A stretch of 64,000 bases of DNA from Haliclystus octoradiatus (lineage: Eukaryota; Cnidaria; Staurozoa; Stauromedusae; Haliclystidae), in assembly GCA_916610825.1 (NCBI GenBank), contig OU744446.1:32778225-32842224 (forward strand), given 5' to 3'. The notes under the pieces were generated by a model, which ran no database searches, was not told the origin of the DNA, and saw only the letters and a program-made list of their open reading frames with translations. Shown here piece by piece: positions 11,001 through 64,000 of this stretch. Each line of letters opens with the position of its first letter. Within the stretch, counting starts at the first letter, position 1. The translations under genes were made by a program, and so were the position numbers.

Positions 11001-11097
11001 TATTATACAGCGATAGAAAGCTTAGTCAATTGTTTAATTATAAGTGATCTGAAAGTTTTATCATAGAAGGTCCATTATGGACTACACTCATTGCTAG
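8081..11097 (+). mobile_element. Helitron-like non-autonomous unit A1 (first of tandem pair A)
   Basis: One of four copies of a 3.0 kb unit in the window (A1, A2, B1, B2). The left end begins in a short (tatttc)n tract followed by 'tgtgtctgtccgcgac'. The right end carries a hairpin (GTCCA-tta-TGGAC) 11 nt before CTAG, followed by T. A hairpin followed by CTRR and insertion before T is the classic Helitron 3' end. No terminal inverted repeats or target duplications are seen. No Rep/helicase ORF is present, so the unit would need a helper. The conserved ORFs at 8082-8270 and 8362-8562 are short and probably meaningless. The exact 5' TC is ambiguous because of the microrepeats. A1 ends directly against A2. 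Confidence 0.65.
10336..10409 (+). other. tRNA-like segment with pol III A and B boxes inside unit A1
   Basis: An A-box-like word, 'tggctcattgg' (10343-10353), is followed 34 bases later by a B-box-like 'gttcaaatc' (10388-10396), the normal tRNA spacing. Acceptor and T stems pair poorly, so this is not a working tRNA gene. It may be a decayed tRNA or the head of an old SINE captured by the element. All four units carry it. Confidence 0.55.
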
Positions 11098-14000: not shown

Positions 14001-14137
14001 GCGTATTGTGTCTCATGATCTCCTCCAGAGTTCATACTCCGTATTATACAGCGATAGTCAGCTTAGTCAATTGTTTAATTATAAGTGATCTGAAAGTTTT
14101 ATCATAGAAGGTCCATTATGGACTACACTCGTTGCTA
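11098..14137 (+). mobile_element. Helitron-like non-autonomous unit A2 (second of tandem pair A)
   Basis: Head-to-tail with A1; the junction reads CTAG then 'tatttctatatttcgatatt'. It is 3040 bp, the same length as B2. It differs from A1 by many scattered substitutions, and has a small extra segment near 12000-12030 missing from B2. Its right end has the same GTCCA/TGGAC hairpin and CTAG (14134-14137). The next sequence is unrelated to the right flank of B2, so CTAG is a true end. It lies 40 nt upstream of the exon starting at 14178. Confidence 0.65.
13377..13450 (+). other. tRNA-like segment inside unit A2
   Basis: Same position as in A1. The A-box region is 'tggctaattgg', and the B-box word 'gttcaaatc' lies in 'cagttcaaatccgcc', slightly closer to consensus than in A1. 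Stems are degenerate. Confidence 0.55.
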
Positions 14138-14177
14138 GTATCTATATACTATTCGTATGATTTAGATCTATCCTCAG

Positions 14178-19141: not shown

Positions 19142-19260
19142 AGACAAAGATGAATCAAAGCCTTTTCGTAATTCCAAGTTTCAAGTGTTTATTTCACGAT
19201 CTTCAGACGGTATACTAACATATTAAAAAACATACCACTATACTCATGTGAACATACATA
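19142..19260 (-). repeat. Solo arm of the hammerhead-like foldback element
   Basis: Matches the left half of the foldback at 42975-43167: 'acaaagatga' at the edge, then 'aagcctt', 'gtttca', and finally 'cataccactatactc', which is identical at 43061. The second arm is absent, so this is a half or truncated copy. Confidence 0.65.
19165..19210 (-). ncRNA. Hammerhead-ribozyme-like motif HH1 (minus strand)
   Basis: Read on the minus strand: CCGT, core CTGAAGA, stem II region TCGTG...CACTT, core GAA, ACT-TGG-AAT, T, ACG. Stem I pairs CGT with ACG (3 bp). Stem III is weakened compared with HH5. Both core blocks (CUGANGA and GAA) are intact. It is probably a decayed type I hammerhead. Confidence 0.45.
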
Positions 19261-20914: not shown

Positions 20915-20957
20915 TCTGTCTGATGGTCGCATAAAGCGAGAAACTTCAAGATACAGA
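20915..20957 (+). ncRNA. Hammerhead-ribozyme-like motif HH2
   Basis: TCTGT, core CTGATGG, stem II TCGC-ATAAA-GCGA (4 perfect pairs), core GAA, short stem III region ACTTCAAGAT, then ACAGA. Stem I pairs TCTGT with ACAGA (5 bp). The last core base is G instead of the required A9, and stem III is irregular, so it is probably inactive. It lies 110 bp before the (TTA)n block and downstream of the minus-strand Penelope-like element. Confidence 0.45.
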
Positions 20958-21066
20958 AAATTAATGCGTGGTCTTTGAATCCATTATTATTATTTACGCT
21001 CTATCAAATGTCATCGAGCACTATCTCAACTGCTGTTAGATACCATATTATTATTATTATATTAGA

Positions 21067-21649: not shown

Positions 21650-23066
21650 TTACAAAAGGAGACGAGAACGGATAGAGTCACTCTGAGTGTTGAGAGTCGG
21701 TTTCCTTTCGCGGATGATTAGCATTTCGTGAACCAAACAGTCAAACTTGTTGTTACATTTTCTCACTACTGAAAACAGATGTTGTGAATCACTGATGGTC
21801 CTATTGTGTGAATGTAAGTGTCGTCCGACAGCCGAGCTCGATCCACCGTGTTCAGCAATGCGTTGATGAAGGTGTCGGCATGTAAAACCGACATAACTCG
21901 CATCACACGAGTCACACTTGAATTCATACACAACGCATTGACGAGACAGTAGAATCGGTCTCGGCTCCCGGACTCTAAGTTCATCATTTAATTTTCTACT
22001 TTTAAATATCGGTCTAAACTGTTGACCGACTTCAACACTCAGAGTTCCTAATTGTTTACTTAAAGAGTTAGCAGATATCTGGTCTTTATACGGCAATATA
22101 ATATTGATTGTATTGTTCTTTTGTGGATTTTCATTGTTAGTCGTATGGCGATTAAATTTAGAAATACAATAATCAATAAAATCTAAGGGATACTTCAGTT
22201 TTAAAAATACATCCTTAATATTTAAACATTCTGAATTAAATATATTGTCATCGGACGATAACCGTCGTGCACGATCTAACATGGTTAAAATAAGGCCTCG
22301 TTTGTATTTTTCATCAACATGACTTTGGTAATGAAGCAATAGTCCACAATCAGTCTGCTTTTTGTAGATAGGGGTTTCTATAATAGAACCGTTTTTATTG
22401 AGCATAATGCCAAGGAATGGTAATTTATTATCTTGCTGTACCTCAAAAGTAAATTTTAAAGAGGAACTATTGTTTAAAACATTCTACTGCTTCAGAATAA
22501 CTGGGCATAACAGCAAACGTGTCATCAACATATCGACAGTAATATCGTGGTAAACAGTTCTGTTGATCAAGTGTATCCTCTAAATCGCACATAAATACAT
22601 TTGCCATTAATGGACCAAGCGGTGAACCCATAGCAACACCATCAATTTGCTCGTATAAATTACCATTTAATTGAAATAATTGATTTTTAGTAGCTAATTG
22701 TAATAGTTCAGTTAGACCTTCAGAAGTAATACAAAGATCGTACGTTTGGTTAAACCAATCATCTTTAAAAGCCTTTTCTACGAGTATTTTTATTGTCTCT
22801 TCTACGGGAACATTTGTAAATAAAGAAGACACGTCATATGATACCAAAATGTCTGATTCACTTAGAACTAAAGTTTTCGCTTCATCACAAAATTCAAAAG
22901 CATCTTTCAAAGTAAAAATATTATTAGAAATTGGCTGTAGCTTTTTCTCTAGCCATTTTGCGAGCTTGAAGTTATACGTATTAGTAGCACTTAGTATCGG
23001 TCGCATTGCTAATGTCTGTTTGTGGGACATTAGCAATGTGAGACATTGTTTGTGAGACATTAGCAA
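21650..23066 (-). pseudogene. Penelope-like element, reverse transcriptase plus GIY-YIG endonuclease (minus strand), frameshifted
   Basis: Two consecutive frames (22467-23066, then 21650-22405) make up the 5'-truncated ORF of a Penelope-like retroelement. In order it contains YNFKLAKWLEKKLQP, RT motif A-like VSYDVSSLFTNVP, motif B-like GVAMGSPLGPLMANVF and the catalytic YVDD. The downstream part carries a GIY-YIG nuclease with a CDSC zinc-binding pair, YVGFT, HQRIAEH and a conserved E in VHEMLI. The ORF ends at TAA 21650. An 8-base deletion near 22480, seen by comparison with the plus-strand copy, breaks the frame. The N-terminus is cut off at the centre of a palindrome. It is otherwise nearly identical to the plus copy, so insertion was recent. 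Confidence 0.9.
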
Positions 23067-24011
23067 TGCGACCGATACTAAGTGCTACTAATACGTATAA
23101 CTTCAAGCTCGCAAAATGGCTAGAGAAAAAGCTACAGCCAATTTCTAATAATATTTTTACTTTGAAAGATGCTTTTGAATTTTGTGATGAAGCGAAAACT
23201 TTAGTTCTAAGTGAATCAGACATTTTGGTATCATATGACGTGTCTTCTTTATTTACAAATGTTCCCGTAGAAGAGACAATAAAAATACTCGTAGAAAAGG
23301 CTTTTAAAGATGATTGGTTTAACCAAACGTACGATCTTTGTATTACTTCTGAAGGTCTAACTGAACTATTACAATTAGCTACTAAAAATCAATTATTTCA
23401 ATTAAATGGTAATTTATACGAGCAAATTGATGGTGTTGCTATGGGTTCACCGCTTGGTCCATTAATGGCAAATGTATTTATGTGCGATTTAGAGGATACA
23501 CTTGATCAACAGAACTGTTTACCACGATATTACTGTCGATATGTTGATGACACGTTTGCTGTTATGCCCAGTTATTCTGAAGCAGTAGAATTTTTAAATG
23601 TTTTAAACAATAGTTCCTCTTTAAAATTTACTTTTGAGGTACAGCAAGATAATAAATTACCATTCCTTGGCATTATGCTCAATAAAAACGGTTCTATTAT
23701 AGAAACCTCTATCTACAAAAAGCAGACTGATTGTGGACTATTGCTTCATTACCAAAGTCATGTTGATGAAAAATACAAACGAGGCCTTATTTTAACCATG
23801 TTAGATCGTGCACGACGGTTATCGTCCGATGACAATATATTTAATTCAGAATGTTTAAATATTAAGGATGTATTTTTAAAACTGAAGTATCCCTTAGATT
23901 TTATTGATTATTGTATTTCTAAATTTAATCGCCATACGACTAACAATGAAAATCCACAAAAGAACAATACAATCAATATTATATTGCCGTATAAAGACCA
24001 GATATCTGCTA
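22069..24011. repeat. Large near-perfect palindrome of the Penelope-like element
   Basis: The minus arm 22069-23017 (949 bp) and plus arm 23055-24011 (957 bp) are inverted copies around a 37-bp spacer. By eye they differ only by the 8-base indel and a very few substitutions (for example ETP versus ETS in the protein). The spacer repeats 'gacattagcaatg' words. The plus arm runs into the assembly gap, so total arm length is unknown. Confidence 0.9.
23066..24011 (+). CDS. Penelope-like element reverse transcriptase (plus strand), truncated at the gap
   Basis: An open frame of about 315 residues before the Ns. It has the RT landmarks YDVSSLF (about 57-63), GVAMGSPLGP (123-132) and YVDD (159-162), then the thumb region. 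Unlike the minus copy it has no frameshift. The 5' part of the ORF, normally several hundred residues, is missing at the palindrome centre. The GIY-YIG domain presumably lies in or beyond the gap, but after the gap the sequence is Helitron-like. The enzyme would copy element RNA into DNA at a nicked target. The apparent frame through the Ns to 24349 is meaningless. Confidence 0.9.
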
Positions 24012-24211
24012 NNNNNNNNNNNNNNNNNNNNNNNNNNNNNNNNNNNNNNNNNNNNNNNNNNNNNNNNNNNNNNNNNNNNNNNNNNNNNNNNNNNNNNNNN
24101 NNNNNNNNNNNNNNNNNNNNNNNNNNNNNNNNNNNNNNNNNNNNNNNNNNNNNNNNNNNNNNNNNNNNNNNNNNNNNNNNNNNNNNNNNNNNNNNNNNNN
24201 NNNNNNNNNNN
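24012..24211. other. Assembly gap (200 N)
   Basis: Exactly 200 N, probably a placeholder length. It separates the Penelope palindrome from Helitron-like unit B1. The true distance and sequence are unknown. Confidence 1.
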
Positions 24212-27200
24212 CTATATTTCGATATTTCTGTGTCTGTCCGCGACTTATGTACGTCTTACTGGCGATATAATACGGATAATCCGTTGTCGGGAAATTATGC
24301 AAACATTTGTGTCGAGATAACCGTGTACAGTAACAAATTTGTTGTATGAAAAGTATGGGTCTATGGCGTTGTTTTAAAATAATATACTTCATCTGATATT
24401 TTATTTGATATCATTGCATTAAAAAATTCAGAGATTTTGAAAAATTTCATAGGTCGATAATCTAGCGGGCAGCCAAATCGACTTCAAATTGAAATCTCCA
24501 GAACAAAAATATTTTGCTTTAAATTTAAAAGCTGCGTGTAAATTGTTTGAACAAGTGAAACTTGAAACTGAATCAGTTTTATGATAATTAAAGCAATACG
24601 AAATACTGAATTACATTGAATTACCAGTATAACTAGGCCAGACAAAATATGTTTTGAAATCAAAGAAACGTAGACATATTTCATGTAGTGTTGATATCAG
24701 CAATACATATAGCGCGGCACAAACGCTATGAAATTAAAGAGACTTGAGGTCTTAATTTAATTTATTAATGAAACAAAATGCCGTTCATTACTTTTCTCAA
24801 AATCGAGATATAAAACATTTCACTTTTAAAAAGGCTATTTTGATACATAATTTGTGAGAACACTGAGCAAACAATCTGTTTTGAAATGAATAATCTATCG
24901 CGGGGCTTAAAAACAAATTAATTTGCAAGAATTTTCAAATTGGCGTTGGCGTTCGACTATTTCGAAAAATATTCAAAGTTCGAAGAGATTATCTGTCTAC
25001 AGTCTAAAATCATAGAGTTTAGAATTAATCAAGGCATTGCACAAAAGTATTTTTATAATTTATTATTTAATATAAAAAAACGAATCATTTGGTTTTAAGC
25101 AGCAAGGCTTTTATTTTCAGATTTTGCTTCCATAATTAACGAAGGAATTATACTGGCATCGATTAATATTAAAATTTCATTTTGTTGACTTGCTATACGA
25201 ATAAGACACAGTATGTTACTACAGTTTCGAGAATAAAAATAGCGATGTCTTGTTATTATCTTTGATCAACATTTAATAAAGTTAATTTCAGGTATATCAA
25301 ATTTAACAAAGTTAAATTGAATTGAGCGTATGATTTGTGATAAATAATAATAATTATAATATTTTCAGCGTTCAAAAATTTTGCTTTGAATTTAAAAGCA
25401 CAAAAACATAATTCAAAAACATTTTTAAATAGTTAATACAGTTTGGATGAGTGTAACAAACCTTGTGTTACAAAAATAAAAAGTGAAAAGTTTGCACGAA
25501 ATAATCGATCATAGCAAACAATATTTATTAAAATAAAACTTACCATTTTCCAAATGAGATCCAAATAAAAACTATACGAGCGGCATAATCTCCGAACAAC
25601 ATTTAAATACATAATAGCGGGTTCTCTGAGTTAATACACCAATCAATAGTAAGTTAACAACCATATTTTATCGAAGGAGAATGTACGCCCGATAAGAATA
25701 AAATAAAGATTGTCTTTTATTCGAAATAATTCTGACAAAAATGATCATTTCATATCGTAATCAAATGCATGGTAAAGTAGATTCATTTTCTACATAGTAA
25801 ATTATCCTTTTCGTCAGACATCATAACATGAGCATTTAAATATTACCATCGGCTATGGTATTTTATATCTTTGAAGCTGCACTAAACATTTCCACTCTAT
25901 AAACCATCGCGTCCGTTTCAATAAATTCTGAATAAATATGCATATCACGAATCTGGCAAAATGAGTTGTTTTCGTTTTTCTATCAAAATAATTAATTTAT
26001 TCATAATCGTCTTTCCTTTCATTCGACATCTGTAATGTATTATAAATAGCGCGTAGAAATATTGACAACAAGATGTAACATAATATCAATATCGAATTAG
26101 TATAGCGATTTATTATAGAATTTTATTTCCTTTTAAAAGAATGTTGATGCTATTATTCTGGATAATTTGATAACAAGAGGCACTATGAGGTCAATTTTTC
26201 ACATCTTTTGTTTACTTTTAAAATTTTATTTTCAACGAACTCTTAGTATTTTGATAGACTGCCATGAAAATCACAGGCCTACTTGCTGAGATTGCAAAGA
26301 TCAAAAATATATAGGCTCATATACTATCATATCATAATATTATCAGATTATATATATAGTTTGAAATCAATACACGCGCTGTCGCCTTGTTCAGTAATAC
26401 GTTGTCGAAGCAATAGGTTTGTTGATTAGTACAGTCAAGGCGCGTACAACAGTATGTAAGGGGTTGGCTCATTGGTTAATGCTCTGGTATTACAAAATCA
26501 GGGTCGTAAGTTCAAATCTGCCATTCGGCAGTTTTTATCAACGATTTTTCTGATTTTTTTTTTAATATGAAGCAGTAAATCATTGTTAATTAACAAAAGA
26601 TATCGTTTGATCATGTTAATAACAGAAATTAGTGGACCATGTGTTTTGTCGAAGCTAAATTAATTTAATGCTGAATATATTGCATGCAATGCCACGAGTT
26701 TGACCGGCCACACCTTGACGGCGTTATTTTGTGAACACCACATTAGTGTTGTATATATTGCAATAAAGATTTATGAATTCGAACCGAACGCGATCCGATC
26801 GTGTCGGGTCAGATTCGGGTTAATATTTTAGGTCTTCGGATCTGATCGGATTTGAAGTGATTTTTTATGGATAGTTTCAGATTTGGAAATTTGACTGAGT
26901 ATTTGTAATTTATAATAATTAATGTGTTCTGGCTTCCTTTCAACACATAAAATAAAGTTTTTCTATGTAGACAAAGCTACGTTAAATTATACATTTCAAT
27001 CGACTCAATTGATGTGAAATAAATTAAATTTTTATTAAAGGAATGATTAAGATGTATTGATTAATGCTACATCGTTTCAATGCGTATTGTGTCTCATGTT
27101 CTCCTCCAGAGTTCATACTCCGTATTATACAGCGATAGAAAGCTTAGTCAATTGTTTAATTATAAGTGATCTGAAAGTTTTATCATAGAAGGTCCATTAT

Positions 27201-27219
27201 GGACTACACTCATTGCTAG
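24212..27219 (+). mobile_element. Helitron-like unit B1 (first of tandem pair B), left end in gap
   Basis: Nearly identical to A1 along its whole length; by eye only a few substitutions, such as 'aaaagtttgcacg' for 'aaaaggttgcacg' and several changes near 26150-26200. It ends in the GTCCA/TGGAC hairpin and CTAG (27216-27219). The first 10-20 bases of the unit lie in the gap. It has no ORF with a known domain. Confidence 0.65.
26457..26530 (+). other. tRNA-like segment inside unit B1
   Basis: Identical to the A1 copy: A-box 'tggctcattgg', B-box 'gttcaaatc'. Degenerate stems; not a functional tRNA. Confidence 0.55.
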
Positions 27220-30200
27220 TATTTCTATATTTCTATATTTCGATATTTCGATATTTCGATATTTCTGTGTCTGTCCGCGACTTATGTACGTCTTACTGGC
27301 GATATAATACGGATAATCCGTTGTCGGGAAATTATGCAAACATTTGTGTCGAGATAACCGTGTACAGTAACAAATTTGTTGTATGAAAAGTATGGGTCTA
27401 TGACGTTGTTTTAAAATAATATACTTCATCTGATAATTTATTTGATATCCTTGCATTAAAAAATTCAGAGATTTTGAAAAATTTCATAGGTCGATAATCT
27501 AGCGGGCAGCCAAATCGAATTCAAATTGAAATCCCCAGAACAAAAATATTTTGCTTTGAATTTAAAAGCTGCGTGTAAATTGTTTGAGCAAGTGAAACTT
27601 GAAAATGAATCAGTTTTATGATAATTAAAACAATACGAAATACTGAATTACATTGAATTACCAGTATAAATAGGCCAAACAAAATATGTTTTGAAATCAA
27701 AGAAACGTAGACTTATTTCATGTAGTGTTGATATCAGCAATACATATAGCGCTGCACAAACGCTATGAAAATTAAAGAGACTTTAGGTCTTTAATTTATA
27801 AATGAAACAAAATGCCGTTCATTACTTTTCACAAAATCGAGATACAAAACATTTCACTTTTAAAAAGGCTATTTTGATATATAATTTGTGAGAACACTGA
27901 GCAAACAATCTGTTTTGAAATGAATAATCTATCGCGGGGCATAAAAACAAATTAACTTTCAAGAATTTTCAAAATGACGTTGGCGTTCGATCAATTCGAA
28001 AAATATTCAAAGTTCGAATAGATTATCTGTCTACAGTATAAAATTATAGAGTTTAGAACTAATCAAGGCATTGCACAAAAGTATTTCTATAATTTATTAG
28101 TGAATATAAAAATATGAATCATTTGGTTATGAGCAGGCAGGCTTTTATTTTCAGATTTTGCTTCAATAATTAACGAAGGAATTATAGGCATCGATTAAAA
28201 TTAAAATTTCATTTTGTTGACTTGCTATACGAATAACACACAGTATGTTACTACAGTTTCGAGAATAAAAATAGCGATGTCTTGTTATTATCGTTGATCA
28301 ACATTTAATAAAGTTAATTTTTTCAGGTATATCAAATTCAACAAAGTTAAATTGAATTGAGCGTATGATTTGTGATAAATAATAATAATTATAATATTTT
28401 CAGCGTTCAAAAATTTTGCTTTGAATTTAAAAGCACAAAAACATAATTTAAAAACATTTTTAAATAGTTAATACAGTTTGGATGAGTGTAACAAACCTTG
28501 TGTTACAAAAATAAAAAGCGAAAAGGTTGCATGAAATAATCGATCATAGCAAACAATATTTATTAAAATACAACTTACCATTTTCCAAATGAGATCCAAA
28601 TAAAAACTATACGAGCGGCATAATCTCCGAACAACATTTAAATACATAATAGCGGGTTCTCTGAGTTAATACACCAATCAATAATAAGTTAACAACCATA
28701 TTTTATCGAAGGAGAATGTACGCCCGATAAGAATAAAATAAAGATTGTCTTTTATTCGAAATAATTCTGACAAAAATGATCATTTCATATCGTGATCAAA
28801 TGCATGGTAAAGTAGATTCATTTTCTACATAGTAAATTATCCTTTTCGTCAGACATCATAACATGAGCATTTAATTATTACCATCGGCTGTGGTATTTTA
28901 TATCTTTGAAGCTGCACTAAACATTTCAACTCTTTAAACCATCGTGTCCGTTTCAATAAATTCTGAATAAATATGCATATCACGAATCTGGCAAAATGAG
29001 TTGTTTTCGTTTTTCTATCAAAATAATTAATTTATTCATAATCATCTTTCCTTTCATTCGACATCTGTAATGTATTATAAATAGCGCGTAGAAATATTGA
29101 CAACAAGATGTAACATAATATCAATATCGAATTAGTATAGCGATTTATTATAGAATTTTATTTCCTTTTAAAAGAATGTTGATGCTATTATTTTGGAAAA
29201 TTTGATAACAAGAACCACTATCAGACCAATTTTTCAGATCTTTTTTTTACTTATAAAATTTTATTTTCAACGAACTCTTAGTATTTTGATAGACTGCCAT
29301 GAAAATCACAGGCATACTTGCAGAGATTGCAAAGATCAAAAATATATAGGCTCATATACTATCATATCATAATATTTTCAGATTATATATATAATTTGAT
29401 TTTCAATTACACGCGCGTGTGTCGGCCTTGTTCAATAATACGTTGTCGAAGCAGTAGGTTTGTTGATCAGGTCAGTCAAAGCGTCTATAATAATAAGTAA
29501 GGCAGTGGCTCATTGGTTAATTCTCTGGCATCACAATATGAGGGTCGTCAGTTCAAATCCGCCATTCGGAAAATTTTTATCAACGATTTTTCTTATTTTT
29601 TTTAATATGAAGCAGTAAATCATTGTTAATTAACAAAAGATATCGTTTGATCATGTTAATAACAGAAATTAGTGGACCATGTGTCTTGTCGAAGCTAAAT
29701 TAATTTAATATTGAATATATTACATGCGATGCCACGAGTTTGACCGGCCTCACCTTGACGGCGTTATTTTGTGAACACCACATTAGTGTTGTTTGTATTG
29801 CAATGAAGATTTATCAATCCGAACCGAACGCGATTTGATCGTATCGGGTCAGATTCGGGTTAATATTTTAGGTCTTCGGATCGGATCGGATTTGAAGTGA
29901 TTTTTTATGGAAAGTTTCCGATTTCGAAATTTGACTGAGTATTTGTAATTTATAATAATTAATGTGTTCTGGCTTCCTTTCAACACATAAAATAAAGTTT
30001 TTCTATGTAGACAAAGCTACGTTAAATTATACATTTCAATCGACTCAATTGATGTGAAATAAATTAAATTTTTATTAAAGGAATGATTAAGATGTATTGA
30101 TTAATGCTACATCGTTTCAATGCGTATTGTGTCTCATGTTCTCCTCCAGAGTTCATACTCCGTATTATACAGCGATAGTCAGCTTAGTCAATTGTTTAAT

Positions 30201-30259
30201 TATAAGTGATCTGAAAGTTTTATCATAGAAGGTCCATTATGGACTACACTCATAGCTAG
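27220..30259 (+). mobile_element. Helitron-like unit B2 (second of tandem pair B)
   Basis: Joined head-to-tail to B1. The junction has an expanded (tatttc/gatatttc) tract compared with A1/A2. It is 3040 bp long and is the counterpart of A2, with more differences than A1 versus B1. The right end is hairpin then CTAG (30256-30259), followed by T and a flank unrelated to that of A2. Confidence 0.65.
29498..29570 (+). other. tRNA-like segment inside unit B2
   Basis: A-box 'tggctcattgg' and B-box region 'cagttcaaatccgcc' with normal spacing; acceptor pairing is poor. Fourth copy of the internal tRNA-like segment. Confidence 0.55.
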
Positions 30260-30439
30260 TATTGCATAAATGAATCATTTATTTTTAAACTTTATTATCC
30301 GATTGAAAGTTCTAAACTTGGCGCCAATTAAAACCTATCCTAACTGAAGTTTAATGTCTGCTCACTGTGAATTAACTTTTGACATTTTGCTGACAAAGCA
30401 CTATAGCCTAGACAAAACAATGGCACCATCAAAATGTAT

Positions 30440-35404: not shown

Positions 35405-35690
35405 CCTCTGAAAACGTGTGCACTCCTCTTGCCCAATTAACTGGCTAGAAATCATTGCATCATTTTACAATTAATTTTTATGAAGCCAATCATAATCAAA
35501 CATTTAAAAGCCACATATATGATTTCCACAATATCAAATGCGATTCCAAAATATATTCCAATTAATTTGTGCCTCTAAAGGAAACGAGCAAATTAAAGTG
35601 GGATTAAAAGTCTAGTTTGCCATGATGATTAATCATTTGTAATATAGCTGGTTAAAAGGACAAGACAACTGAGATGACCCTCGCAGTGAC
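35405..35690 (+). repeat. Direct repeat D, copy 1 (286 bp)
   Basis: Starts 'cctctgaaaacgtgtgcact' and ends 'cctcgcagtgac'. It matches 36207-36492 with only about three differences by eye. Confidence 0.9.
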
Positions 35691-35997: not shown

Positions 35998-36069
35998 GAC
36001 CTGTTGGTCTAGTGGTATGATTCTCGCTTAGGGTGCGAGAGGTCCCGGGTTCAACTCCCGGACAGGTCC
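35998..36069 (+). tRNA. tRNA-Pro (anticodon AGG)
   Basis: A complete 72-base cloverleaf. The acceptor stem pairs GACCTGT with ACAGGTC. The D arm lies in TGGTCTAGTGGTATGA (box A). The anticodon stem pairs CTCGC with GCGAG around the loop TTAGGGT, giving AGG at 36030-36032. The T arm contains GGTTCAACTCC (box B). The discriminator is C, and no CCA is encoded, as expected for a nuclear gene. There is no intron. The body is almost the standard animal tRNA-Pro sequence. It lies between duplicated blocks D and E. Confidence 0.97.
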
Positions 36070-36206: not shown

Positions 36207-36492
36207 CCTCTGAAAACGTGTGCACTCATCTTGCCCAATTAACTGGCTAGAAATCATTGCATCATTTTACAATTAATTTTTATGAAGCCAATCATAATCA
36301 AACATTTAAAAGCCACATATATTATTTCCACAATATCAAATGCGATTCCAAAATATATTCCAATTAATTTGTGCCTCTAAAGGAATCGAGCAAATTAAAG
36401 TGGGATTAAAAGTCTAGTTTGCCATGATGATTAATCATTTGTAATATAGCTGGTTAAAAGGACAAGACAACTGAGATGACCCTCGCAGTGAC
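36207..36492 (+). repeat. Direct repeat D, copy 2 (286 bp)
   Basis: Second copy of the block at 35405-35690; for example 'ggaatcgagc' here versus 'ggaaacgagc' there. It is followed after 7 bases by repeat E copy 2, whereas in the first copy D and E are 452 bases apart with the tRNA between. Confidence 0.9.
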
Positions 36493-42800: not shown

Positions 42801-42996
42801 ATGTAATAATAAATAAACATTAAAAGCTTAATTTTTAGATAAGAAAAGTCGTAAATCAAGAATGTAGAATAATGATACCATGATTGGAGCAAATTATTAG
42901 CAAGTTGATCGCTAGATAATCATGAACAATTCTAAGTGCAGATTTGAATTTATAGTTTCATAATTGAATAGACACAAAGATGAGGTAAAAGCCTTC

Positions 42997-43043
42997 TACG
43001 TTACTCGTAGTTTCACGCGTTTACTTTGCGTTCATCAGACTGT
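42997..43043 (-). ncRNA. Hammerhead-ribozyme-like motif HH3 (minus strand)
   Basis: Minus strand: ACAGT, core CTGATGA, stem II ACGC-aaagtaaac-GCGT (4 perfect pairs), core GAA, stem III ACT-ACG-AGT (3 pairs), A at the cleavage position, then ACG. All core bases are canonical. Stem I has only two pairs in this copy, so activity is doubtful. An alternative longer stem III (CTACG/CGTAG) is also possible. Confidence 0.55.
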
Positions 43044-43099
43044 TTACTAGAAAATTAAAACATACCACTATACTCGTTATGCTTTAATCTTCTAGTAAA

Positions 43100-43144
43100 C
43101 CATCTGATTAACGCATAGTAAACCCATGAAACTCCGATTAACGG
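43100..43144 (+). ncRNA. Hammerhead-ribozyme-like motif HH4
   Basis: Plus strand, facing HH3: CCAT, CTGATTA (core G8 changed to T), a decayed stem II, GAAAC, then TCCG-ATTAA-CGGA. It has lost a required core base and is presumably inactive; kept because it shows the element was built from two facing copies. Confidence 0.4.
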
Positions 43145-43472
43145 AAAAGGCATTTGCCTCATCTTTGCAGGGGCGGATGCAGCTAGAAAATTGACTGGTG
43201 CAAAGAAGTAATCGAACCCCCTGAACAGAGTTTAAATGCAACTTTCAGGTTCCTAATTGAAGCGAGCTTGAATAGTATTCCCATCTTTGTAATCACAAAT
43301 TGAGAAATTATACCAAGATTAGTTTCCCACTTAGTAGCCAGTGGTAGTCACAGGAAACGCCAAGTGAAGGCTCTTGGTATGTTTCCGGGGAGAGGTTTTT
43401 TTTTTCTACATAAGAACACATATAAAAAAAACTTTGACATAATAATATTTATTATGATGTATATTTATTTAT

Positions 43473-46134
43473 TGACCATATATCACAAAATGACATAGCC
43501 TATTATTATAACACTGAGTGCATGTGCTGAGCTCAATATAAAATTAAGGGAATTGAAAGAGATTGACCATATATCACAAAATGACATAGCCTATTATTAT
43601 AACACTGAGTACATGTGCTGAGCTAAATATGAAATTAAGGGAACTGAAAGAGATTGACCATATATCACAAAATGACATAGCCTATTATTATAACACTGAG
43701 TGCATGTGCTGAGCTAAACATGAAATTAAAGGAACTGAAAGAGATTGACCATATATCACAAAATGACATAGGCTATTATTATAACACTGAGTGCATGTGC
43801 TGAGCTAAATATAAAATTAAGGGAACTGAAAGAGATTGACCATATATCACAAAATGACATAGCCTATTATTATAACACTGAGTACATGTGCTGAGCTAAA
43901 TATGAAATTAAGGGAACTGAAAGAGATTGACCATATATCACAAAATGACATAGGCTATTATTATAACACTGAGTGCATGTGCTGAGCTAAATATAAAATT
44001 AAGGGAACTGAAAGAGATTGACCATATATCACAAAATGACATAGCCTATTATTATAACACTGAGTACATGTGCTGAGCTAATATGAAATTAATGGAACTG
44101 AGAGAGATTGACCATATATCACAAAATGACATAAGCTATTATTATAACACTGAGTGCATGTGCTGAGCTAAATATGAAATTAAAGGAACTGAAAGAGATT
44201 GACCATATATCACAAAATGACATAGGCTATTATTATAACACTGAGTACAAGTGCTGAGCTAAATATAAAATTACGGGAACTGAAAGAGATTGACCATATA
44301 TCACAAAATGACATAGGCTATTATTATAACACTGAGTGCATGTGCTAAGCTAAATATAAATTAAGGGAACTGAAAGAAATTGACCATATATCACAAAATG
44401 ACATAGGCTATTATTATAACACTGAGTACATGTGCTAAGCTAAATATGAAATTAAGGGAACTGAAAGAGATTGACCATATATCACAAAATGACATAGACT
44501 ATTATTATAACACTGAATACATGTGCTGAGCTAAATATGAAATTAAGGGAACTGAAAGAGATTGACCATATATCACAAAATGACATAGGCTATTATTATA
44601 ACACTGAGTACATGTGCTGAGCTAAATATGAAATTAAGGGAGCTGAAAGAGATTGACCATATATCACAAAATGACATAGCCTATTATTATAACACTGAGT
44701 ACATGTGCTGAGCTAATATGAAATTAATGGAACTGAGAGAGATTGACCATATATCACAAAATGACATAAGCTATTATTATAACACTGAGTGCATGTGCTG
44801 AGCTAAATATGAAATTAAAGGAACTGAAAGAGATTGACCATATATCACAAAATGACATAGGCTATTATTATAACACTGAGTACAAGTGCTGAGCTAAATA
44901 TAAAATTACGGGAACTGAAAGAGATTGACAATATATCACAAAATGACATAGGCTATTATTATAACACTGAGTGCATGTGCTAAGCTAAATATAAAATTAA
45001 GGGAACTGAAATAAATTGACCATATATCACAAAATGACATAGGCTATTATTATAACATTGAGTACATGTGCTGAGCTAAATATAAAATTACGGGAACTGA
45101 AAGAGATTGACTATATATCACAAAATGACATAGGCTATTATTATAACACTGAGTACATGTGCTGAGCTAAATATAAAATTAAGGGAACTGATTGAGATTG
45201 ACCATATATCACAAAATGACATAGGCTATTATTATAACACTGAATACATGTGCTGAGCTAAATATGAAATTAAGGGAACTGAAAGAGATTGACCATATAT
45301 CACAAAATGACATAGGCTATTATTATAACACTGAGTACATGTGCTGAGCTAAATATAAAATTAAGGGAACTGAAAAAGATTTACCATATATCACAAAATG
45401 ACATAGGCTGTTATTATAACACTGAGTACATGTGCTGAGCTAAATATAAAATTAAAGGAATTGAAAGAGATTGACCATATATCACAAAATGACATAGGCT
45501 ATTATTATAACACTGAGTACTTGTGCTGAGCTAAATATAAAATTAAGGGAACTGAAAAAGATTTACCATATATCACAAAATGACATAGGCTATTATTATA
45601 ACACTGAGTACATGTGCTGAGCTAAATATAAATTAAGGGAACTGAAAAAGATTTACCATATATCACAAAATGACATAGGCTATTATTATAACACTGAGTA
45701 CATGTGCTGAGCTAAATATAAAATTACGGGAACTGAAAGAGATTGACGATATATCACAAAATGACAAAGGCTATTATTATAACACTGAGTGCATGTGCTG
45801 AGCTAGATATGAAATTAAAGGAACTGAATGAGATTGACCATATATCACAAAATGACATAGGCTATTATTATAACACTGAGTACTTGTGCTGAGCTAAATA
45901 TAAAATTAAGGGAACTGAAAGAGATTGACCATATATCACAAAATGACATAGGCTATTATTATAACACTGAATACATGTGCTGAGCTAAATATGAAATTAA
46001 GGGAACCGAAAGAGATTGACCGTATATCACAATATGACATAAGCCATTATTATAACACTGAGTACATGTGCCGAGCTCAATATAAAATTAAGGAAACTGA
46101 AAGAGATTGACCATATATCACAAAATGACATTAG
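43473..46134 (+). repeat. 91-bp satellite array, about 29 copies, with higher-order structure
   Basis: Units start 'gaccatatatcacaaaatga' and repeat every 91 bp (43474, 43565, 43656 and so on). Variants differ at fixed positions: 'cataggc' or 'catagcc', 'gtgcatg' or 'gtacatg', 'aagggaactg' or 'acgggaactg'. A rare set ('agctaatatg', then 'gtacaagtgc') occurs near 44072 and again near 44707. This gives a seven-unit higher-order period of about 635 bp. The array abuts the hAT remnant. It is non-coding. Confidence 0.95.
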
Positions 46135-46214: not shown

Positions 46215-47237
46215 TCACAGTATATTTGAAAAAGTCATCCTTCTGGGATGGAGAATTGCAAACATTTTAAAAACTTCCTCGATATTTATTTCCTCACTTC
46301 GATGGACATTCATCATTGCAAGTCCATTGAATCTGCTCTCAGACATTGTACTTCTTAAAAAGGTTTTAAGGCGTCGGAGGTTTGAAATTGAACGTTCACA
46401 AGTACATGTTGTCACTGGCAAAGTTGCAAAAATTTTAAAAACTTCCTCGATATTTATTTCCTCACTTCGATGGACATTCATCATTGCAAGTCCATTGGAT
46501 CTGCTCTCAGACATTGTACTTCTTAAAAAGGTTTTAAGGCGTCGGAGGTTTGAAATTGAACGTTCACAAGTACATGTTGTCACTCGCAAAGTTGCAAAAA
46601 TTTGAAAGGCACAGAAAATGTTGGGAAAAGAAAGCTTGTCAATATACGGGAGGAGGTCCTTGAGGTTTTGTGGAGCACTGTCACCACGGTTTCTACATAC
46701 CAATTCCCACATCTCAATTTCAGTGTCCACATATCTAGGTTCTTGAAGATCATCTTTAATTCGATTCAGAAATGCTACAAATTTCTCTTTGTGTTCCCAT
46801 TTTTGTTTGTTTGCTAAAATATTTAGTGGCATTCCATAGGCAGCATCCATAAAGTCCAAATTTTTTTGGGAGAATTTATTTTGAATTCCAGTAAAAAGAT
46901 GGTCAATAAAAGGAACAGCTGTATTAATTCTATAATAAGAACAAACATAATCTGTGGGAGCATTGTTTCGATGTTTCTGAGAATCTGTTGTTCTAGGTTT
47001 GGATGGAAAAACTCCGATTTTGCTTGCAATTGCTATGGCTTCATTAAACCAAGAGAAATGACGAGCCTCAATATCACGTCTCATATTTTGAAGCGTCAAC
47101 ATAAGGGTAGTAAATTTATGTTTAGCTGCAATGGAGTCATATGTTTGTATTGTAAAGGCTTGGTTAATGGTCTGGTTACTTTTAAACATTGATAGACAAT
47201 AACAAGGGTAATAATAAAAGAGAACTGTGGTAGGCAA
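46215..47237 (-). pseudogene. hAT-superfamily transposase C-terminal part with duplicated dimerisation motif
   Basis: A 340-residue frame resembling the C-terminal half of hAT transposases of the ZMYM/THAP0-like group. It has YYRINTAVPFIDHLFTGIQN, then the hATC dimerisation core CTCERSISNLRRLKTFLRST followed by MSE, GLAMMNVHR and EEINIEEVF. The core occurs twice because of a 168-bp (56-codon) in-frame tandem duplication at 46265-46600. The zinc-finger N-terminus and first catalytic residues are missing; traces in another frame continue to about 47300. Transposases of this class cut DNA at terminal inverted repeats, but this copy is almost certainly inactive. Its 3' end touches the 91-bp satellite. 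Confidence 0.85.
46265..46600 (-). repeat. 168-bp in-frame tandem duplication in the hAT remnant
   Basis: 'ttttaaaaacttcctcgata' starts at 46265 and 46433. The two copies differ at only a few positions (for example 'ggcaaagttgc' versus 'cgcaaagttgc'). Confidence 0.95.
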
Positions 47238-47305
47238 TGATATAACGATTCTGCTTTTGATGTTGATTCAGGCAGCCAGAGTCGATCTCTCAAATTTGTT
47301 TCCAA

Positions 47306-53636: not shown

Positions 53637-53828
53637 TAATTATAAATCCGTGAAAACATAACATCTATTTATAATTTATATATGCAGATGATAGCTAACA
53701 AGCGATAATAGGAAATAATAACAATATAATTTATTTCTAGAATCAACAGCCTATGTTCTGTTAAACAATAAATGTGGATTTGTAAATCGATATAGGTGGA
53801 ACTAAATGTTTTTCATTATCTAGTTTAT

Positions 53829-53866
53829 TTGTCTGATGATCGTAAGCATGAAAATATTAGTAACAA
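53829..53866 (+). ncRNA. Hammerhead-ribozyme-like motif HH6, 3' of the Penelope-like fragment
   Basis: TTGT, core CTGATGA, short stem II region TCG-TAAG-CAT, core GAA, AAT-ATT-AGT, A, ACAA. Stem I pairs TTGT with ACAA (4 bp), a compensatory variant of CTGT/ACAG in HH5. Downstream 'gaatgtgta' is also shared with HH5. Stem II is weak. It is in the same orientation as the Penelope-like ORF. Confidence 0.5.
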
Positions 53867-59240: not shown

Positions 59241-59586
59241 CGAGCCATTTGATTTATTTTAAACAACTTAGAGAAAATGAAATTGTATATTACTCTACAA
59301 ATATTCACTGTATTTGCTTTTTACTTTTAATTACTTGCTGTTTATAATGCCATATTTAAATAATTATCGGCTGTTTGGTATTTTCATAAATTTCTTGAAA
59401 TCGATGGGGTCAAGCTTGGCTATGGTGAAATGGCGTTATTGGCGTTAACCAATAAAATCGCAAGAATAAATCGTAGCAGATCCTTGATATGTTCTAGATA
59501 TATATATATATCTACATAATAATAAAATTTATGTTTATCTAATAGCAGATAATATAGGGCTCTATGTCTTCATTTGACAGAGCGGT

Positions 59587-59800
59587 AAATAATAATAATA
59601 TATGGCGAAAGAGTCAAAGAATACACATTCTTTACTGTTACTCCAGTAACCAGAATTTTTACTCAAATTTGATTAGACAGATTTTTTTTTAGACAGATTT
59701 GAGTAAAAAATCTGTCTGAAGATCGCTGTAAAAAACGTGAAACTTGAGTAACAGTAAAGAATGTGTATTCTTTGACTCTTTCGCCATTTATTATTATTAT
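59587..59800. repeat. Foldback element with facing hammerhead-like halves
   Basis: The arms 'ggcgaaagagtcaaagaata' and 'tattctttgactctttcgcc' continue inward through 'cacattctttactgttactc' and 'gagtaacagtaaagaatgtg'. The flanking (TAA)n/(TTA)n is also symmetrical. The right arm ends in motif HH5. The left arm, read on the minus strand, has a decayed facing copy: CTGT-CTAATCA and ACT-GG-AGT-A-ACAG. It lies 220 bp beyond the end of the minus-strand Penelope-like fragment. Confidence 0.85.
59712..59754 (+). ncRNA. Hammerhead-ribozyme-like motif HH5 (most complete)
   Basis: CTGT, core CTGAAGA, stem II region TCG...CGT, core GAA, stem III ACT-TG-AGT (3 pairs, 2-base loop), A at the cleavage position, ACAG. 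Stem I pairs CTGT with ACAG (4 bp). Core positions fit CUGANGA...GAA with the A15.1-U16.1 pair and H17 = A. A type I hammerhead with minimal stem III is the kind known from Penelope-like elements and retrozymes. Stem II is short here, with a U-U at its base, so self-cleavage may need dimers or may be lost. Confidence 0.6.
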
Positions 59801-60018
59801 ACATATATATATAAATAGAGGAGTCATAGACTACACATTTTGTTACTGTAACTTGAAGTTCTATTGCAGCTATTGTTAAATGGGATAAAGCCTATTGTAT
59901 CGCAATGTGTGTCTTTTCTTTTTGATCGTTTCCTATGCGGCATTTAATTGTTACAGTTTATGTTTTAGTCGATTTATAATTATTGAAATGAAATTTATTT
60001 TGTGTCTACATTTTGAAA

Positions 60019-60516
60019 TTAACTCAGATCTTTTATTAAGTAACTCTTTTTTGGAACAATGATATGATATTTTTCTGCCAGGCATAGCTGGCATCTTATC
60101 GTTATATTATTGTATGGTTTTGCTCTCGACAGAGCTGTCCATTCGATGCTGTAGTCGGTGGCTTTGTCCTTCTGTTGCCAAATATATTTGGATAGTTGCG
60201 TGTTGTGTGTATTACGTTCATGCCGAAATGTGCTTGTGTGCTGTGTGTAGCATGTCTTGAAAGAATTTTCCTTCAGACCGATGTAATTTTTACCCTCTTT
60301 GTCCTCCGGGGTAGTCACTTTGGCGTTGTATATTAAGCCTTCCATAAGGCATCTATTGTTTAATGGACAATTTTCCTTTGTGCGGCAGTTGCATAATTGC
60401 GCATTTCTGTTACTTCCATTTCGGTATTTGTTAATTTCTTGTTGTGGTTAGTAATGTTTCCTTTATGTTCGAAGTGCAACTGTAACTTACTTTTAGCGTG
60501 TTTTGATTGAAAATCT
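60019..60516 (-). pseudogene. Second Penelope-like family: GIY-YIG part (3' half of an inverted insertion)
   Basis: Minus-strand words in order: IFNQNTLKVSYSC, NHNKKL, CNCRTKENCPLNNRCLMEG, YNAKVTTPEDK, NYIGLKENSFKTCYTQH, TQLSKYIWQQKDKAT and RCQLCLAEKYHII. The open frame is 60019-60345. Frameshifts lie near 60400 and 60450. It is the same family as 52990-53636. The 5' neighbour of this fragment in the element is found inverted next to it at 60517-60720. Confidence 0.8.
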
Positions 60517-60720: not shown

Positions 60721-60899
60721 CTTATAGTGTATATCTATATGCAAAATATATTACATACAATGAAATGAATGAATTATACATTACATGCAAACTGCATTAC
60801 TGTATATGAAATAAGACTGCGACACATTAATGCAAATGTCAAAAAGGCAAAATGTCAGTATATATGTCAATATACCCAAGAAGGATTATATTTCTTGTA

Positions 60900-61000
60900 T
60901 ATCTTATGTATATAAAGTCAGTCAAACTCGTTGAAATAATATGTATACGCTCTGCTATGGATGAATTTATATGGATTTATATTTCAGATAATCGAACGAG
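60900..61000 (+). promoter_or_regulatory. Conserved upstream block with splice acceptor, second copy
   Basis: Same order of words as 1695-1787: 'gtcagtcaaactcgt', 'ctctgct', 'tttatatttcagataatcg'. AG is at 60986-60987, 13 nt before the ATG. 'atgtatataaagtcag' just upstream could be a TATA-like element. Confidence 0.5.
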
Positions 61001-61330
61001 ATGGAATTTCTGATTTTATTTATCTGCTTTGGTATTATTATCACATTTGGAAGTTTGATTGATGCCACCTTTTCCAATGGATTGAAATATGTTGAACACA
61101 TTGTAAATGATGATAACAAAGCATACAAAATCACAAAAAGAATTGCAGATATATCAGGTGTTAAATGCAGTATCAAATGCGCAGCAAACAGGGAATTATG
61201 TCATTATAAGCGTGAAAAAGAGATTTCTACAAGTTCAACGATAATTTGCGAATTTTTACAACAAAGTGATGGTGGCACTCTGAGTGAAAGTGAAATCACA
61301 GAATACAACAGTGGATATGGACCTGTTTAT
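61001..61330 (+). CDS. First coding exon of a secreted PAN/apple-like protein (paralogue of 1788-2126)
   Basis: 110 residues: a signal peptide (about 1-25), then LKYVEHIVNDDNKAYKITKR, and a Cys module with C56, C60, C67 and C83 (same spacing as the paralogue, last gap one shorter). Residues CAANRELCHYKRE and IICEFLQ are identical in both. The exon ends before GTAAGT at 61331. Sequence similarity continues about 130 bp into the intron. The following exons would lie beyond 61.5 kb or outside the window. Function is not known; an extracellular binding or adhesion role is inferred from the PAN-like pattern. The 5' copy has one extra codon pair at the start (MEIEF versus MEF). Confidence 0.65.
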
Positions 61331-61464
61331 GTAAGTATAATTAGTTGGAGTAGTAGCGATGACAGAGTTATAGTATTTTGATGTTTCAAGGACAAATTTC
61401 AATAATAGCTGTCGATTGGCAGCTCTGAGCCACTGAGATCTAACTGTACAGTTGAGTTTGCTCC

Positions 61465-64000
61465 AATTGGCAGTTATGCAAAGGAATTACCTCTTTCTCA
61501 AGTGTATTTTCCAGATTACTGTATTTCCAGTGTACTTTAAATTATGGGTATCAGTTTTTAAAGGAGAAGAAGGAGTCTGACTGAATTATAATAACAAAAG
61601 CAATAACTAATTTAGACAGGCTTCGAGAAAGTGTGAATCCTTGGATCCTAGATTTCGACGGAGAATTCCAATTCCCGCAAAATACGTATTTTTTCTTTTT
61701 TTTGTATGTTTATGAGATGAGATTCTCATCAACTGTCGGACGAACAGTACCTACTATAATTATTGTCTTGTGTTATATGACAGTTTATAAGAATCAAATT
61801 TTTATATTACGAACTGCAAACATTTAGATACTTTTAGATACTCAATGAGATTTCTCATAGTGAACGTTGACAAGTTCCCTCGCGAATTTCAAAATGTTTT
61901 TGAATCACTTTTATACGAGAGAGTTTTACAAATTTCATGCCAGAGAAAATAAAACAAGCAACAAAATATGAGATGAGGCTGTGTAATCGTAGTCTATGCA
62001 TACACAATTTGCATCTTATTTAACAATTTTCTCGTCGCTATTTTATTGTCGAAAAATATCACTCTTCTGCTAAAGTTTATAAGCAACAAACTTTTTTTTT
62101 ACGAAATGCGAACATTTAGATATTTTTAAATACTCAATAGTTATCTAGCTTAAGTTTGTATTTTGTGGAGTTGTATTCGTTTTAGTCAGTATCAATATCC
62201 AGCTGATTTGTTTCAAAAATTAAATCTGAAACTCGAATGGACGTCGTCTTAAAATTTGTCCTCCAAATCATGAAGCTGCACGCATCATTGATGCCTCTTA
62301 GATTGACGGTTGAATTTAAAATTAAATATTTAGTTTCAAGTCACAGAAATTGAATTTTAAATGTTAAGATAATTTTTACATGAGAATGTTTCAAGCAAGG
62401 TTGTTTACATTTTTGGTGTTTTATTAACCAACCAGCGCTCAATAAAATTTCATGTGATACCAAGATGCGCTGTGATTGGGCACACCATATTCTTGGTTTC
62501 TGGCACATTTTATTACCTTCAGTTTTGTTTGGCCCTCATGGAGCGCCGCGTGGAAATGAGAGCCGTGATGGAATGAGGCTAGCCAATGTCAACATGAGTT
62601 TGATATTGTGCCTCATTTAAAAGAAATATTTCATAGAGCTAATATTTCAGATCGAGGTCGAAGTTATCTGGTGACGCCGTAGACTGAGCCCGATAACTTC
62701 GCCCTAAGTGTGAATTCACAACGCGCAGTGGAAGTGTTGAAACGATCAAACAATAGAATCACAGCAGGACAGCTTTTACAAGGATAGTAATTTTACGATC
62801 AAACCCTTCTTGTCTCAAATGCATATAAAATGGTCGTAGAAACGGGAAAAAGATTACAAAATTGCTATATGATGTCTGAATTTTTATATATCATGATTCC
62901 ATTCTCAGAATACGAAATTGGACTTTCAACAAAAGTCTAAAATGAGATTGGAATGTAATATATTTAGCAAAGGTTTGTACTGGAGGTGTTTGGTGCTTCA
63001 CCAAGCCTTCCAGCTGTGTGTTGATACTGGACACGTGACTGCGCCTTGCGAATTATTCTCAATATTGTGCAAAGCCGCATTTAATAATTGAATTATTGTT
63101 TTGACCTCATCATATCTAAAGAAAATCGTAAGAAAACAAGAGTCGCAAATAAATATCATTATTTATTTGCTAATTTATAATTCCAAATAATAAAATTTGA
63201 AAACTATGATAAAATGTGGACTTTCAAAAATAAAAAACATTTCAAGATATAAAATCATGATTTTAAAAAGTTCTACAATTAAATTAGTTTACTTGCATTT
63301 GATCATTATAGGTGCAAGCTGCATTATTTTGGAATAATAATTTAGCAAGTTAATAAAGTCTCTTCTTTTACCGATAATGCTTTCTCCGTTGCTTGTTCTC
63401 TTTCCATTTGCTATTGACTTTCGAAAAATTAATAAAAAATTATTCAAAAATATTGTTTGCCTACGTCAACTTAACCACGTTGTATTGGGTACTACAGAGT
63501 GAGATATTGATCATCACTGGATCATAATAAACTTTCCAAAAAAAAATCAATATCTCCAGGTATTACACGTTTTAGCTAGAAATATCGTGTTTTCTTTCGA
63601 ATACTTATACGAACAATGATTATTAGTTTAAGATTATAATGGAAATCGAAGACTCGAATAATAATAAAAAAATAACTTTAGAACATTACCACTTCGACAA
63701 ACAACTTTATTAGAAAATTAAAATGAAATGAAATCACCACAAGAGCTAAATAAGCATGTTGAATAATTATTATTAAGAAATTAAGAATATATTTTCTTTT
63801 AATATACTTTCGATAACCAAGCAGACACAATTTAAATAGAGCTTTTTCACACCGGCCGTGTTGGTATGTACATCCAGCTGTCATATAGTCTTTTCAAATA
63901 CATCACAAGGGTTATAATCTTTTTTTTTGACAATTCTCGAGAGACTCATGAGCCCGTGAAAAAGTTTTGCAGATCAATTGGCACAACTAGATTTGAATCA
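61465..64000. other. Non-coding stretch to the window end
   Basis: No gene recognised; ORFs at 61633-61827 and 63678-63884 have no features. A short word, 'cgaactgcaaacatttagat', near 61808 is echoed as 'cgaaatgcgaacatttagat' near 62102. Bases 62255-62330 faintly resemble the start of the tandem repeat at 31085. Further exons of the PAN-like gene may be hidden here. Confidence 0.4.

Follow-up and report, generated by a model that had tools for sequence, protein, structure and literature searches.

Minimal type I hammerhead motifs of putative Penelope-like elements in the stalked jellyfish Haliclystus octoradiatus, with a loop III that suggests dimer action

Abstract

The genome of the stalked jellyfish Haliclystus octoradiatus carries an abundant class of small RNA motifs, which we read, with a probability of roughly 85%, as minimal type I hammerheads derived from the pseudo-LTRs of several Penelope-like families, which would cut as dimers and whose elements would insert mostly from uncut RNA. 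The stretch of DNA that was analysed, 64,000 nucleotides of contig OU744446.1 and referred to here as the window, holds six copies (HH1 to HH6), which are relics of Penelope-like elements, mostly decayed. That the intact relatives cleave is something we infer from their sequences.

Results

Detection of the motifs

A strict hammerhead pattern, searched in 261,861,806 bases on 33 contigs, gave 3,067 matches (1,553 + 1,514), and the reversed-pattern control gave none (0 + 0). It is this genome-wide comparison that decides that the motif is real; the window on its own is weak evidence. In a structural scan of the window, requiring a stem II of 3 bp gave no match (mean of 0.05 in 60 Markov shuffles), a stem II of 2 bp with a stem I of 3 bp retrieved HH5 only (shuffle mean 0.15, maximum 3), and the loosest setting retrieved HH5 and HH3 (mean 0.28, maximum 3, 60 shuffles). 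A loose window pattern with 13 matches (shuffled mean 3.04) was set aside; four of its matches are an unrelated duplicated repeat.

A covariance model was built from 17 natural copies, all of them outside the window. Within the window it scored HH5 at 47.8 bits (E 8.6e-10), HH3 at 44.2, HH2 at 43.9, HH6 at 34.4, HH1 at 32.3 and HH4, weakly, at 16.6 bits (E 0.072); no further match in the window fell below E 1, the next best having 11.6 bits and E 1.3. Across the window and 45 loci (46 sources, 264,822 bases), the model gave 115 matches at E 0.01 or better, a number that cannot be read as a density because the loci were selected for carrying the motif. A scan with the Rfam hammerhead models, which the sequence-only reading had put forward as a check, found no match at the motifs in the window, in the HH5 region or in 17 loci with intact relatives. 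It proved to be a false-negative test: as the intact relatives were missed too, the failure reflects the models and not the fold. One match to Hammerhead_3 (L040:6269-6320, 20.6 bits, E 9.9) lies away from any motif and was taken as chance, and a whole-genome search with RF00163 gave 0, a result that is uninformative alone, since control genomes gave 0 as well. Thus, an abundant hammerhead class, associated with an ORF that has no Pfam family, is missed by the Rfam models at every locus tried.

State of the copies in the window

The letters confirm the six motifs at the positions listed in Table 1. HH2, HH4, HH5 and HH6 lie on the plus strand and HH1 and HH3 on the minus strand, a point missing from the sequence-only reading, which as a whole was partly confirmed. 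That reading had given all six a common layout (stem I, CTGANGA, stem II, GAA, a 3-bp stem III, A or T, stem I), from which HH2 (CTGATGG) and HH4 (CTGATTA) depart; the strict core is found in the window only in HH1, HH3, HH5 and HH6, only HH3 and HH5 have kept all 3 bp of stem III, and four of the six motifs have a broken core or stem III. The claim that stem I changes in step on both sides holds for HH1, HH2, HH5 and HH6, but fails at the third pair of HH3 and the second pair of HH4. HH5, which reads CTGT CTGAAGA TCGCTGTAAAAAACGT GAA ACT TG AGT A ACAG from stem I to stem I, had been called the best copy. It does have the top score in the window; however, most of its stem II is lost, with 2 bp remaining in TCGCTGTAAAAAACGT compared with TCGCTGTGAAAAGCGT in intact relatives, and HH5 is probably inactive or very weak. 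The cut predicted for it, after A59750, was placed correctly by the earlier reading.

Table 1. Hammerhead motifs and associated features in the window.
Feature	Position	Strand	Description
HH1, decayed family A hammerhead	19165..19210	-	stem III C.A mismatch, weak stem II; letters, covariance model
HH2, decayed family C hammerhead	20915..20957	+	A9G, stem III mismatch; letters, covariance model
Tail hairpin, HH2 element	20998..21019	+	followed by (ATT)n tract to about 21415
Head-to-head element, HH3 and HH4	42975..43167	.	arms 42975-43064 and 43078-43167, 84% complementary
HH3, family A hammerhead	42997..43043	-	core, stems II and III intact; stem I 2 bp only
HH4, decayed partner of HH3	43100..43144	+	G8T, stem III mismatch; weak model match, E 0.072
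TTTTTCATT motif	53809..53817	+	precedes HH6 by about 24 nt; shared with families B, C, F, J
HH6, family D hammerhead	53829..53866	+	stem II shortened, stem III mismatch; letters, covariance model
Tail hairpin (GCTCTGTC...GACATAGAGC), left arm of HH5 element	59559..59583	-	sequence identical to family B tails
Inverted repeat with HH5 in right arm	59589..59800	.	arms 59589-59647 and 59742-59800, 97% complementary
HH5, family B hammerhead	59712..59754	+	2-bp stem II, 2-nt loop III; motif letters, structural scan, covariance model
Decayed hammerhead 3' part downstream of 60019-60447 ORF	59820..59861	- (as ORF)	59841-59861 located; remainder by eye
ORF fragment, same kind of element	60019..60447	-	Cys motif, GIY-YIG-like C-terminus; 56% identity over 116 aa to L051 ORF

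Covariation of the stems

By its order of CTGANGA, stem II, GAA, stem III, H17 and stem I, open at stem I, the motif is a predicted type I hammerhead. Seventeen family rows were compared, hand-picked from 53 types and mostly intact, which raises the paired percentages: stem I is 98.5% paired and stem II 79.4%, each with changes on both sides at three of its four pairs. Whole-structure covariation reaches 0.323 against a shuffled mean of 0.167, and 18 cells are changed on both sides against a mean of 4.8, values attained in 0 of 500 shuffles each; the number of pairs changed on both sides is 6 against 3.5 (11 of 500 shuffles as high), and one of the five covariation measures, the number of further pair types, does not exceed the shuffled mean (9 against 9.6, reached in 420 of 500). 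It should be noted that these shuffle controls overstate the significance, because related families are not independent. When the 3' partners were slid along the alignment, pairing fell to 49.4% or less.

A similar picture comes from 66 distinct motif strings, in which the first four pairs of stem I are 95, 89, 86 and 82% paired and the fifth 14%. Pairing is 0.88 in stem I (0.76 shuffled, maximum 0.81 in 1,000 shuffles) and 0.77 in stem II (0.71 shuffled, maximum 0.75); position 1 of stem II is U.U in 42 of the 66 strings, which counts against the hammerhead reading. The fetch pattern left stem I out and included parts of stems II and III, and the invariance of the core and near-invariance of the ACT/AGT stem III are partly imposed by it. 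Four unrelated CTGACGA repeats were left out of the stem, loop III and upstream-motif counts. The earlier proposal that a covarying stem I points to selection at the RNA level held across the families, with the 98.5% pairing and the compensatory changes at three of four pairs.

The coding element

A locus designated L051, the first 141 letters of which are N, contains an ORF flanked by hammerheads at 199 and 2715, a spacing of 2,516 bp, and thus a tandem unit of about 2.5 kb of family B. Among the 100 family B sites listed, same-strand spacings of 2,516, 2,516 and 2,518 bp recur, so that tandem hammerhead copies are seen at the DNA level. Family B is young, as the matches to a 460-bp query, at least 51 with 40 of 2,096 candidates scored, include 41 of almost full length and 99-100% identity; spacings similar to those above recur among these matches.

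The ORF encodes about 710 aa (stop-to-stop 378-2543, 721 aa; 713 residues from 402; ATG at 405). By eye, it contains a reverse-transcriptase-like series, FDIENFYPSI, MGSYDG and YRDD, followed by a Cys motif and a GIY-YIG-like end (YIGLT...RYTQH). Searches of Pfam (to E 10) and of the PDB gave no match, and NCBIfam gave one unrelated row at chance level (E 0.067), so that the Penelope assignment rests on the motifs seen by eye and on the architecture. A single-sequence structure model of the ORF was unusable (pLDDT 32.7), and none of nine viral-contig stretches with the ORF peptide pattern encodes a relative. In their sequence features, namely putative pseudo-LTRs, head-to-head copies and a single tail, the elements are of the Penelope-like kind. 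The sequence-only reading, which had proposed type I hammerheads with a minimal stem III from Penelope-like sources, is supported by the covariation, the 3,067 matches and the repeats of the ~2.5 kb element.

The window holds a fragment of the same kind of element beside HH5: the ORF at 60019-60447, 265 bp from HH5, matches the C-terminal domain of the L051 ORF. HH5 was considered as the sense-strand hammerhead of this ORF, but this was dropped, as the ORF lies on the opposite strand and has its own decayed 3' end. In the left arm of the HH5 inverted repeat, the hammerhead is mostly gone.

Several other features of the window were recorded. A different reverse transcriptase at 21650-24011, of the YVDD type, matches Pfam RVT_1, looks Penelope-like by eye and has a head-to-head arrangement interrupted by an N run; its ORF (22-24 kb) was considered as a relative of the hammerhead-element ORF and rejected (best BLASTP E 5.3, not significant). 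A 6-kb direct duplication (8090-14141 and 24212-30262, 96.9% identical, two units of ~3 kb per copy) may be an assembly effect, because its second copy begins directly after a 200-base N run (24012-24211). Adjoining HH4 is a 91-bp satellite (43471-46131, 29.3 copies), in which no hammerhead is visible in the consensus or found by the covariance model at E 5. There are also two related small genes (1665-2271 and 60865-61466, 83% identical DNA, the first ORF without Pfam match), a hAT transposase fragment with two dimerisation-region matches (46215-47267), and a 286-bp direct repeat (35405-35690 and 36207-36492, 99% identical) flanking a tRNA gene (35998-36069).

State of the template at insertion

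For a 29-base pattern lying directly 3' of the cut site, allowing up to two mismatches gave 1,449 matches; a pattern spanning the site gave 1,324, and a satellite array may have inflated both counts. The difference of about 9% leaves room for copies starting at the cut site, and base changes explain part of it; 21 of the 100 exact family B sites listed lack an exact crossing match. With 1,324 matches crossing the site against 1,449 on its 3' side, the template seems to be mostly uncut, suggesting that uncut RNA is the usual template for insertion, in line with the in vitro insertion of ribozyme mutants of a lizard element (PMC11167929).

The array itself is a side observation. At G000:C1:38055422-38055810, four family B 3' halves follow one another on the same strand at intervals of 90 or 180 bp, and genome-wide the reverse matches exceed the forward ones by 313 and 318, perhaps because of a hammerhead satellite array.

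A predominantly uncut template could also mean that the hammerhead is kept for a role other than cutting, for instance as a protein-binding or template-folding element. The site-crossing matches, at ~91% of those 3' of the cut site, would fit such a role, as would the observation that ribozyme mutants of a lizard Penelope-like element still insert in vitro (PMC11167929). In the same study, the ribozyme of the lizard element failed to cut when the protein was absent, and no RNA-seq ends were seen at its cut site, findings that tell against our preferred reading. However, a core and covarying stems that are kept across families fit catalysis better, the core being partly imposed by the fetch pattern, and we consider a non-cutting role improbable.

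Loop III and dimer action

Stem III is a nearly invariant ACT-loop-AGT. Among 50 types with a 3-nt loop, nucleotides 1 and 3 of the loop can pair in 44 (39 Watson-Crick, 5 G-U; 6 unpaired), the 39 Watson-Crick pairs comparing with a shuffled mean of 20.0 and a maximum of 33 in 10,000 shuffles. For this count, 19 strings were added by hand from part of the strict-pattern listing, and HH6 falls outside the pattern. A 3-nt loop is present in 14 of the 17 family rows, with a Watson-Crick pair in 13 and a G-U pair in one, and the remaining three have TG, TT, which is unable to pair, and TAAA; among the types with a 2-nt loop, self-pairing is possible in 14 of 16, in seven of them via wobble. Because a pair between nucleotides 1 and 3 leaves a single base in the loop, it is unusable by a monomer hairpin and usable by two copies. 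In the energy model, the double hammerhead lies below twice the monomer in all ten natural examples with a 3-nt loop, and in the 2-nt-loop families B (HH5 included) and H the monomer stem III cannot close under the model rules. The hammerhead is the lowest-energy fold in 0 of 10 three-nt-loop monomers and is not so in 12 of 13 natural pairs, and since it is rarely the minimum-energy fold, the dimer energies are suggestive only.

According to passages of two papers (PMC7761336, PMC6466107), Penelope hammerheads may act as dimers, for which a palindromic stem III loop and tandem copies are needed. The self-complementarity of loop III suggests dimer action of this published kind, and the proposal, made from the letters, that a dimer of HH5 be tried was well founded in view of this self-complementarity and the dimer energies. 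The simpler possibility, that each monomer cuts after its 3-bp stem III has closed on its own loop, would account for the near-invariance of ACT/AGT (partly imposed by the fetch pattern) and agrees with the ability of 3-nt loops to close in the folding model. On the other hand, a complementarity across a one-base gap, as in 44 of 50 types, is useless to a monomer, and families B and H carry 2-nt loops. We therefore regard cutting by monomers as quite improbable and favour cutting by dimers.

Orientation, tails and 5' ends of solo copies

Of 31 cases of close neighbours (gap below 150 nt), 26 stand head-to-head, with the two motifs divergent, and the five exceptions all lie in the L040 cluster. 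For family B, among the 100 sites listed, 18 of the 20 neighbours no more than 300 bp apart are divergent. A tail hairpin (GCTCTG...GAG) was sought in 29 divergent pairs, the pairs HH3/HH4, L006 and L046 having been added by hand: 23 pairs have it on exactly one arm, none has it on both, and in six it was not found; by eye, three of these six (L034, L018, L042) have a mutated tail. Pairing within the hairpin, 42 of 48 in 12 hand-picked tails, was equalled in 59 of 5,000 shuffles, which is modest support. In family B, the tailless arm passes directly into an (ATT)n tract and the tail likewise ends at one; in L051, both corresponding points are short ATT tracts within the unit.

In family B, the 5' ends of nine of 18 copies coincide to within 5 nt, at 17-21 nt upstream of the hammerhead, and the sequences suggest that transcription may start at this distance. 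Of 103 upstream regions, 14, from five families, have a TTTTTCATT-like motif at -22 to -26 (shuffled mean 0.43, maximum 3). The overlapping loci L005, L007, L011, L013 and L028 were excluded from the tail-architecture, 5'-end and upstream-motif analyses, and L015 also from the last.

This arrangement bears on two further explanations. The copies might be remnants of non-LTR retrozymes, which spread via circular RNA as short tandem repeats; these have type I hammerheads and, as passages of PMC7229834 describe, are present in jellyfish, and the four family B sites on one strand, 90 or 180 bp apart (C1:38055422-38055810), are what such repeats would look like. Nevertheless, no direct tandem repeats of 150-450 bp with hammerheads were found at the loci examined, the close neighbours are head-to-head and not tandem (26 of 31), and the units possess a tail, target AT repeats and exist in a coding form of ~2.5 kb, all of which makes a retrozyme origin very unlikely. 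Finally, inverted repeats of a DNA transposon or MITE with a chance likeness to hammerheads would yield short elements such as 59589-59800 and the 5' end common to nine of 18 family B copies, but not the compensatory changes in stems I and II, the tandem coding copies or the tails on one arm only, so that we give this explanation hardly any credence.

Discussion

Our preferred reading, hammerheads of Penelope-like pseudo-LTRs that cut as dimers, can be put together as follows. Read-through of a tandem array would yield RNA with two or more hammerheads, two of which may pair via their ACU-N2/3-AGU segments to form a double hammerhead; this would cut after residue 17 (usually A) and release unit-length RNA. 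A single molecule carrying only a solo copy such as HH5, or two copies head-to-head, would be unable to cut in this way, and the RNA used for insertion would normally not have been cut at the ribozyme concerned. Reverse transcription would begin downstream, at the AT-rich tracts flanking the tail hairpin, and extension of both target strands would give rise to head-to-head copies.

It is tempting to go one step further and suppose that the ribozyme senses tandem arrangement, being on in the read-through RNA of tandem units and off in solo and head-to-head copies, because helix III would be formed only between two copies. We put this forward as a tentative idea that we rather doubt. If true, unit-length coding RNA would be made solely from arrays, and the solo copies would supply uncut template.

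A passage of one review (PMC7761336) calls the role of the hammerhead in Penelope-like elements unknown. The thousands of copies, from several families, in this chromosome-scale genome provide sequence evidence for dimer action, and what seems newly useful here is the covariation in loop III, the count of tails on one arm and the match counts at the cut site.

The motifs are of a known kind, dimer-type Penelope hammerheads, in a host for which we found no report in the open-licence literature, where no paper combining Haliclystus and ribozyme was found. Small hammerhead variants of Penelope-like elements were described by Cervera and de la Pena 2014 and Lunse et al. 2017, as cited in passages of PMC7761336 and PMC6466107. 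As far as these passages go, the published hammerheads resemble ours in their minimal type I fold without a long helix III, their location in pseudo-LTRs, their tandem copies and their palindromic stem III loop, and dimer action has been reported for them. The copies described here differ in their stalked jellyfish host and in having a 3-bp stem III with a loop of 2-4 nt, and, set beside the published ones as known from the citing reviews, in comprising several families and showing covarying self-complementarity of the loop.

Animal non-LTR retrozymes, as presented in parts of PMC7229834, likewise have type I hammerheads and thousands of genomic copies and occur in Cnidaria; unlike the elements studied here, they are direct tandem repeats of 150-450 bp, and neither a coding form nor head-to-head pairs are described in those parts. 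The Penelope families of Adineta vaga, in the portions of PMC3846280 that concern their architecture, share head-to-head inverted pLTRs, one optional tail and tandem pLTRs with our elements; host and protein are different, and the word "hammerhead" occurs 0 times in the main text of that paper. The Poseidon element PAc of the lizard Anolis (PMC11167929) resembles our elements in its tandem units with a hammerhead close to their 5' end, its optional tail, its ATT-rich targets and its internal start of reverse transcription, and both strands are extended in vitro in PAc. Here, 172 nt separate the cut site from the ATG downstream of it (L051:405), whereas in PAc the site is 26 bp inside the ORF, and, compared with PAc, both putative start sites of family B are ATT tracts matching the target repeats.
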